The notes beneath the pieces are model-generated. The model was not told the DNA's origin. It saw only the letters and a list, made by a program, of their open reading frames with translations, and did not search any database. Below, in pieces: positions 21,214-23,430 of a DNA stretch of 64,000 nt. The stretch is from Nitrospirota bacterium (GTDB lineage: Bacteria > Nitrospirota > UBA9217), in contig JAGVOT010000134.1 of the NCBI GenBank assembly GCA_020052615.1, positions 1 to 64,000 on the forward strand. The letters run 5' to 3'. Position numbers and translations under genes: made by a program. Every line of letters starts with the position of its first letter. The stretch's first letter is position 1.

Positions 21214-21558
21214 ATGAGGATCATTGCGATCGCTGTTGTAGTTGTTTTGCTCTTGACGGCAGGTTCCGTTGTGGTTCTCGCCCAGCAGGGACCGTCAGGC
21301 GGGCCGGGCACCGGCATGCAGGAGGGGATGAAGAAGGAGTACACGCCCGAGCAGTTCCCGGAGGTCAAAGCGCGGGTGCTGAAGATGCTTGATGAGCGGA
21401 AGGCGCGGCTTGAGCGGGAGCGGGCTTGCGTCGAGAAGGCAACGACCCATGCAGAACTGAAGAAATGCCGGCCCGAGCCTCCGATGGGCGGGCAGATGCA
21501 TCGCGGCGGAACCGGCCAGCAGCGGCCGCAGATGCCGGGCGGCCAGGGTGGTCAGTAA
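21214..21558 (+). CDS. Small secreted Gly/Gln-rich protein, unknown function
   Basis: The 114-residue product has a clear signal peptide (MRIIAIAVVVVLLLTAGSVV, cleavage after VLA). A charged helical middle follows (FPEVKARVLKMLDERKARLE), with two Cys (ACVEKA and KKCRPE), then a Gly/Gln/Met/Pro-rich tail. It is likely periplasmic. The heptad-like charged helix resembles small periplasmic metal-stress or chaperone-like proteins, but this is only a resemblance. CAGGAGG lies seven bases before ATG. It follows the response regulator by 274 bases and may be a target of it. Confidence 0.7.
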   Translation: MRIIAIAVVVVLLLTAGSVVVLAQQGPSGGPGTGMQEGMKKEYTPEQFPEVKARVLKMLDERKARLERERACVEKATTHAELKKCRPEPPMGGQMHRGGTGQQRPQMPGGQGGQ

Positions 21559-21574
21559 TGGAAAAAACAAAGCC

Positions 21575-22009
21575 CGGCAGGGCGCACTCACTTGATGTGC
21601 AAGTCCTCTATGGACCCTGCTGACGGGAACCATTAGCCGAACCGCAGGGATCACCCGTCCGGCGGTCGCAAAGACTCCCCGGACGTGAGCTGGCTTGCGA
21701 CGGGAACTGCGCTGCATCCTGTGGCGGCAGTGGAAGAGTCCCATGACCAGGGCCAAGAAACTCATCGAACGGGGGATAGAGCGGATGCGAGCCTACACGT
21801 CGGCAAATAACGGCCGGGGTCAATGGCAGAGTGCCGGAGAGTCTTGCATGAATGCTGCGATTCCTGCACGGTGGCTCATGCAACAGGGACTCGTCAGCCT
21901 CATTCAGGCACATCGACGCTTATCATGCCTTGCATGGAACCGCCGTATGCCGAGCGGCACGTACGGTGGTGTGAGAGGCGGGGGTCGGGAGGCCCCTACC
22001 TACTCGATT
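21575..22009 (+). mobile_element. Degenerate group II intron remnant
   Basis: The 3' part has an intact domain V. The stem ACCGCCGTATGCC, loop GAGC and GGCACGTACGGTGGT give a 9-bp helix, a CG bulge and a 4-bp tip, with a CGC triad at the catalytic position. A domain VI-like hairpin and the end CCTACCTACTCGAT follow. The 5' part (GTGCAAGTCCTCTATGG, then GGGAACCATTAGCCGAACCG) matches bacterial group II intron domain I as I know it. Between them lies only the tail of the maturase. A full element would be 2-3 kb, so most of the reverse transcriptase has been deleted. Exact 5' boundary is uncertain. Confidence 0.75.
21698..21922 (+). pseudogene. C-terminal fragment of group II intron reverse transcriptase/maturase
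   Basis: The frame reads RRELRCILWRQWKSPMTRAK, then TSANNGRGQWQSAG, SCMNAAIPARWLMQQGLVSL. This resembles the C-terminal end of group II intron-encoded proteins (an L-R-x-x-L-W-R-Q-W-K block, then MNAAxP followed by a GLVSL segment). An in-frame TGA occurs just upstream, and no RT domain is present. It sits inside the intron remnant, directly before domain V. Confidence 0.65.
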
Positions 22010-22038: not shown

Positions 22039-23430
22039 TCACGTCGCCTTCTTTTTCCTGCCCCGTGCGGCCGGCGGCCGTGTCCGTTCCTCGGCCGTCT
22101 GTTCTTCCCGCCGCCGCTTCGGATAGATCCTGATGGGTGAGCCGTGGAAGCCGAAGGCCTGGCGCAGGTTGTTCTCGATGTACCGGATATAGGAGAAGTG
22201 GACTCCCTCGGGATAGTTCACGAAGACGACGAAGGTCGGCGGCTTTATCGCCACCTGGGTGACGTAGAAGTACTTGACCCGCTTGCCGTGGTACATCGGC
22301 GGCTCGTGCCGCGACGTAAGGCGTTCGAACACGCGGTTCAACTCGGCCGTGGGCACGCGCTTCTCCCGTTCGGACACGATTTTGTCGATCTCGTCGAAGA
22401 CCTTGGTCAGCCGCTGGCGCGTGAGCGCCGACAGGGTGAGCACGGGCGCATAGTCGACGAACTTGAGGCGATATTTCACGTCGTCGATGAATTTCTTGTA
22501 TGCTTCTTCCTTGTCCTGCACCAGGTCCCACTTGTTCAGGACGATGATGATGCCTTTGCCTTCCTCGTGGGCGATGCCGACGATCCGTTCGTCCTGCTCG
22601 GTGACGCCTTCCGCGGCGTCGAGCAGGACCAGGGCTACATCGCAGCGGTCAACGCCCTTCATGGCACGCATGACGCTGAACTTTTCCACGCCCTGGCTGA
22701 TCCTGCCGCGGCTCCGGATGCCCGCCGTGTCCACCAGGATGTATTCCCGCCCGTAATACCGGTACAGGCTGTCCACGGCGTCCCGCGTGGTGCCCGACAC
22801 CGGGCTCACGATCATGCGGTCCTCGCCGATGAGCGCATTTATGAAGGATGACTTGCCCACGTTGGGCCTTCCGATAATGGCGATCCGTGGGGTGACCCGC
22901 GTTCCTTCCTCGGGCTCGGGAACCGGAGGTGTATCAGGCAGGATCTTCGCCAGTTCGTCCATGAGGTCGGTAAAACCCGAACCGTGCAGGGCGGACAAGG
23001 GGATGAGCGTGTCCACGCCAAGTCGGTAGAAATCCGGGAGGAGCCCCTCGTGCCGGGCGCCGTCCACTTTGTTGATGGCGTAGATGACCGGCTTTGCGGC
23101 GGCGCGCAGCCGCTGGGCGACCTCGAGATCGGCCGGCAGCAGGCCCTCCTGACCGTCCATGAGGAAAATGATGTAATCCGCCTCCTCGATGGCAAGGGTC
23201 GTCTGGTCGCGGATCTTCATGAACATGGGATCTTCGGACTCGGGCTCGAAGCCGCCCGTATCGACGAGGTGGAACTGCTTGCCTTCCCACTCCGCGTCGG
23301 CGTAGTTGCGGTCCCGCGTGACGCCGGGCATGTCCTCGACGATTGCGAGGTTCCTCCCGAGGATCCGGTTGAACAGTGCGGACTTGCCGACATTCGGCCT
23401 GCCCACGATGGCGACGACTGGTTTGTTCAT
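22039..23430 (-). CDS. der: GTPase Der (EngA), ribosome assembly
   Basis: The 463-residue protein has two tandem GTPase domains, each with G1 GRPNVGKS (at residues ~9 and ~187), followed by DTGG or DTAG and NKVD or NKWD guanine-specificity motifs. The C-terminal KH-like domain (YHGKRVKYFYVTQVAIKPPT) is intact, then a basic tail (RRREEQTAEERTRPPAARGR). Der acts in 50S subunit maturation. ATG 23430 is the first Met of the conserved MNKPVVAIVGRPNVGKSALF. It is convergent with the intron remnant, which ends 29 bases beyond the der stop. Confidence 0.96.
   Translation of the reverse strand: MNKPVVAIVGRPNVGKSALFNRILGRNLAIVEDMPGVTRDRNYADAEWEGKQFHLVDTGGFEPESEDPMFMKIRDQTTLAIEEADYIIFLMDGQEGLLPADLEVAQRLRAAAKPVIYAINKVDGARHEGLLPDFYRLGVDTLIPLSALHGSGFTDLMDELAKILPDTPPVPEPEEGTRVTPRIAIIGRPNVGKSSFINALIGEDRMIVSPVSGTTRDAVDSLYRYYGREYILVDTAGIRSRGRISQGVEKFSVMRAMKGVDRCDVALVLLDAAEGVTEQDERIVGIAHEEGKGIIIVLNKWDLVQDKEEAYKKFIDDVKYRLKFVDYAPVLTLSALTRQRLTKVFDEIDKIVSEREKRVPTAELNRVFERLTSRHEPPMYHGKRVKYFYVTQVAIKPPTFVVFVNYPEGVHFSYIRYIENNLRQAFGFHGSPIRIYPKRRREEQTAEERTRPPAARGRKKKAT

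Follow-up and report, generated by a model that had tools for sequence, protein, structure and literature searches.

The window, that is, the whole 64-kb stretch of DNA that was analysed, carries a 437-nt remnant of a group II intron at 21572-22008, lying between a gene for a small protein and a convergent gene which we take, from its sequence and established knowledge, to be der/EngA-like. The features of the locus are as follows (position, strand, feature).

21214-21558, + strand: open reading frame of the small protein (114 aa, N-terminal signal-like hydrophobic stretch), outside the intron
21565-21571, + strand: AAACAAA, the last bases of the 5' flank in common with the empty site of a sister species (AAACAAAGGCC...) and left edge of the original terminator, by comparison with locus L075
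21572-21665, + strand: 5' end of domain I without the initial GTGC, intron nt 5 to about 101, by alignment to L088, L027 and L028
21666-21697, - strand: deletion scar, in which ~30 nt from the lost RT gene probably stand inverted (minus strand of L088, about 1529-1560)
21698-22008, + strand: 3' part of the intron, comprising the RT/maturase C-terminus remnant, domain V (DV) and domain VI (DVI), 82.7% identical to L088 1579-1886
21704-21934, + strand: maturase C-terminus remnant, 77 codons, frame open, 66-68% identical to intact relatives
21938-21971, + strand: DV with CGC triad, part of the RF00029 match
21972-22008, + strand: DVI with GNRA loop (GGGA) and 3' boundary CCTACTCGAT, from the RF00029 match and the boundary consensus of PMC4028801
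22009-22016, + strand: 3' flank TCGTTCCG, which in the empty site of genome G001 follows on directly from the terminator (L075 about 1980-1990)
22039-23430, - strand: open reading frame of the der/EngA-like two-domain GTPase, the convergent neighbour

The window was searched with all Rfam families, and the sole match above gathering score was RF00029 (Intron_gpII) at 21938-22008 on the + strand (49.6 bits against a GA of 40; E = 9.9e-7, calculated over 64 kb). The model was covered end to end (1-77), and the CGC triad was read from the alignment. The last ten bases of DVI, CCTACTCGAT at 21999-22008, fit the published class C 3' boundary consensus CCUACYCGAU (PMC4028801), and A 22002 is the probable branch point, judged from position -7. 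A first-pass annotation made from the letters alone had described a group II intron with DV and its CGC triad, a DVI-like hairpin, the 3' end and nothing of the RT beyond the maturase C-terminus, all of which was borne out; its further description of an element collapsed to ~435 bases at 21575-22009 was right as to the internal deletion and has been corrected as to the limits, base 22009 already belonging to the 3' flank. The class C 5' boundary GUNYGCCNRGCAUGG was not found in the window, where the element begins AACAAAGCCCGGCAGGG as against GTGCGCCCGGCAGGG at the start of relatives, the first four intron bases GTGC of the 5' splice site (GTGCG, GUGYG) being absent; the element was therefore filed as a deleted derivative and not as an intact member. 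Assignment to class C (IIC) would follow from the intron ends together with the insertion site.

Full-length relatives, which the first-pass annotation had named as something to look for, were found with intact RT. With the element as query, collinear, split matches were obtained in related genomes: G001, of the same genus, and G003, of the same family, hold full-length introns whose two matching halves lie about 1.5 kb apart and enclose an intact 486-codon RT frame; the RT of L027 was recognised as a group II RT/maturase (TIGR04416, 416.7 bits, plus RVT_1 and GIIM). The nearest relative among public genomes, in Nitrospiraceae bacterium UBA6898 (L088), was a class C (IIC) intron of 1,882 nt with intact RT, running GTGCGCCCGGCAGGGCGC...GCCTACTCGAT. 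Alignments to the G001, G003 and L088 introns all show a gap of about 1.47 kb. The element shares with class C introns of the B.h.I1 type (L088, L027/L092, L028/L090, L093) the 5' and 3' end sequences, the type of DV/DVI with CGC triad, the type of site behind a terminator and, over the 77 codons left, what is probably the same RT/maturase C-terminus; these relatives are about 1.88 kb long, with domains I-III complete and the RT intact, whereas the window copy has 437 nt and lacks the 5' splice site, the ribozyme core and the RT.

With L088 as reference, the window keeps ~94 nt of domain I and the last ~313 nt of the intron, and ~1,470 nt between them are gone, comprising most of domain I, all of domains II-III and most of the RT. 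On the 3' side, 21698-22009 pairs with about L088 1573-1886. The 5' segment (21572-21665) is 88% identical to L088 8-92, with a gapped alignment extending to 8-104, and 91% identical to L027 and L028, so that the domain I-like sequence of the first reading stands for about 94 nt (88-91% to full-length introns) and falls for the rest of that domain. The Rfam D1-D4 models matched the full-length relatives strongly (RF02001, group-II-D1D4-3, at L088 90-264; RF01998, group-II-D1D4-1, at L088 299-380; both present in L088, L027, L093 and L037), the L088 regions falling in the deleted interval except for about 15 bases; in the window, a cut-off as loose as E<=1 gave no D1D4 match. In place of the deleted sequence stands the 32-nt scar, which aligned to the minus strand of L088 with a local score of 18, reached by 0 of 2000 shuffles; its counterpart there (about 1529-1560) lies just before the right-hand breakpoint. 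No match to the scar was found in the other relatives, which are more diverged at that place. On a single gapped alignment over 32 nt, to a single relative, the scar is read with moderate confidence as a small inversion accompanying the deletion. Foreign filler at 21650-21700 was considered and dropped, the minus-strand L088 match making an inverted piece of the intron itself the better explanation. A 14-nt forward match to the RT gene (L088 728-741) was not used, as it competes with plain continuation of domain I.

The small protein gave no Pfam or NCBIfam match above cut-off, and the 3' end of its gene aligns with G001 L075 1854-1930; der is present in all but one of 14 family genomes examined. 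In the sister species G001 the orthologous site, flanked by der and a fragment of the small-protein gene, is empty (AAACAAAGGCCAGCAGGGTATCCTGCAGGCCTTTTCTTG/TTCGTTCCG, L075), with an intact terminator hairpin (-19.9 kcal/mol), plus TTTTCTTG/TTCGTTCCG, running straight into the 3' flank of the element. Class C introns insert behind intrinsic terminators (PMC4424553), and relatives L092, L090, L093 and L089 sit directly behind terminator hairpins. By comparison with G001, the element occupies the former place of a bidirectional terminator, and the target would have been the terminator of the small-protein gene, its exact ancestral form in the window lineage being reconstructed from G001. Half of this terminator is now missing, its arm in the window probably having been deleted later, after insertion. 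At the orthologous place in G002 and in the further family members that were inspected, no matching element was found. G001 has a second copy of the site, with the terminator GGGCCGGCAGGGTATCCTGCCGGCC and an intron of a different subtype in it; the arm of that terminator has CCGGCAGGG in common with the 5' end of the window intron. In G001 the terminator site orthologous to that of the element occurs twice, as does the 3' end of der (L075 1-255 and 1930-2070 with L193 1560-1668); in one copy a subtype-2 intron sits at this very junction (TCGTTCCG), and the other is empty.

Taken together, the element is almost certainly an inactive, internally deleted class C (IIC) group II intron, a fossil of a known kind. 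A full-length IIC intron of about 1.88 kb with its own RT/maturase would have taken its place between the small-protein gene and der, behind the terminator. From its interior, one deletion would have removed about 1,470 nt (most of domain I, domains II and III, most of the RT), leaving the short inverted scar, and another, between the CCGGCAGGG copies in the terminator arm and the intron 5' end, would have taken the right arm of the terminator together with the 5' splice site; because CCGGCAGGG is common to both, recombination after normal insertion would give the 5' junction seen in the window. The outcome would be a 437-nt relic, with three quarters of the intron gone, unable to splice or move. 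The same relic might instead have been made short during reverse transcription, by template switching, and inserted already deleted, since faulty retrohoming could produce both the inversion at the junction and the loss of 4 nt from the 5' end. We regard this order of events as unlikely, because ordinary recombination at the CCGGCAGGG repeat (terminator arm at the end of G001 contig C1) would account for the 5' junction, and a search of the element's own genome with the element gave no second copy with the same breakpoints.

Decay of the relic is not deep, which counts against the main reading. The maturase remnant reads in frame (ELRCILWRQWK...RLSCLA), although conserved residues are lost (NGRGPWWNAGASHMN to NGRGQWQSAGESCMN), its stop codon is lost or displaced through a 1-nt insertion, and Pfam and NCBIfam do not recognise it as such. 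DV has one change (21954, A to G) among 35 columns invariant in functional copies. Over all such columns, changes numbered 3/56 in DV/DVI vs 9/94 in the RT remnant (Fisher p=0.54), so that the catalytic part gives no sign of upkeep by selection, at numbers small enough for weak selection to be missed.

The first-pass annotation had also offered a stable RNA, for which positive evidence was not obtained. In principle DV/DVI, and the whole-element fold with them, could be under selection for a role as stable or regulatory RNA, such as supplying a new 3' end to the small-protein mRNA or the der mRNA after the loss of their terminator: the element sits at the former bidirectional terminator, DV is nearly unchanged, and the stability of the fold exceeds that of shuffled sequences by a moderate margin (z=-2.5), as DV/DVI plus 5' hairpins would lead one to expect. 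This we consider very improbable, as DV/DVI is preserved no better than the dead RT remnant, no such element lies at this site in the sister species or the other genomes inspected, and a scan for promoter-like and terminator-like sites at the element found none. Slightly less credible still is the narrower form in which the relic was co-opted between its two convergent neighbours, with the DV/DVI hairpins as the 3' end structure of either mRNA.

DV needs domain I for docking and exon recognition, and a maturase assists a complete ribozyme. With the ribozyme core absent, splicing is not plausible with or without a maturase, and the earlier suggestion that the element could fold and splice through a maturase acting in trans is not supported. 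Domains I-III (Rfam, E<=1) and a 5' splice site GUGYG were not found in the window, and the element's own assembly gave no RVT_1 match and no group II RT/maturase above cut-off, only a trace of 37 residues well below it, an absence that falls short of proof, since a draft of 135 contigs may lack multi-copy introns. A splicing-competent reduced or ORF-less intron served in trans, for which one might cite the intact DV, DVI and 3' splice-site consensus, the known ORF-less introns served by related maturases (PMC4424553) and the ORF-less IIC intron of the genus (L037), deserves practically no credence, given the deleted 5' GTGC, the D1D4 models missing here yet present in the genuinely ORF-less L037, the lack of a maturase above cut-off and the lack of an interrupted gene to restore.

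The RT reading frame is absent from ORF-less bacterial group II introns as it is from the window element, but true ORF-less introns keep ribozyme domains I-III. Like truncated bacterial group II introns (PMC4028801; PMC3522654), the element has suffered deletion (internal or terminal in that group), is presumably inactive and lies in a genome without a detected functional counterpart; there is no essential difference, save that here the deletion is internal and leaves most of both ends in place. Truncated copies form the majority of bacterial group II introns (PMC4028801), and fragments without active counterparts are common in bacteria (PMC3522654).

Several related elements were seen in the genus. 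G002 carries at L037 1060-1760 (- strand, contig C74) a 689-nt ORF-less IIC intron directly behind a terminator, with D1D4-3, D1D4-1 and DV all above the Rfam cut-offs, and another at L038 1190-1810 (- strand, C25); this MAG gave no group II RT match (TIGR04416), although it is fragmentary (550 contigs, 8% contamination) and an RT may be missing from it. At least eight contig ends in G001 lie within an intron whose sequence agrees at 96-100% identity with the ends of the G002 ORF-less intron (L075 1-52, L193 1618-1668, L196 802-852, L197 706-757, L198 756-799, L199 630-680, L084-L087). Each 5' end is directly behind a terminator, which points to a IIC intron present in high copy number, its body lost in assembly. 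G001 yielded a single group II RT, of another subtype. The window's own genome, G000, holds four further relics of the ORF-less subtype (L190 485-696, C65; L191 491-889, C130; L200 310-530, C113; L192 508-620, C131:94.5 kb), in two of which, about 210 and 400 nt long, DV and the two intron ends survive and the middle is lost, as in the window element. It also holds two DV matches of a different group II class 2.1 kb apart (L006, G000:C58 13902-13982 and 16021-16141, - strand), with near-identical flanks and no RT.

By itself the element, one more case of a well-known kind, matters little, truncation being the majority form. It does illustrate clearly, thanks to the full-length relatives and the empty orthologous site, how a class C intron would land behind a terminator and then decay. 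Of more interest in the same genus is an intact ORF-less IIC intron lineage behind many terminators, where a review knew of only one independent ORF-less bacterial intron (PMC4424553).
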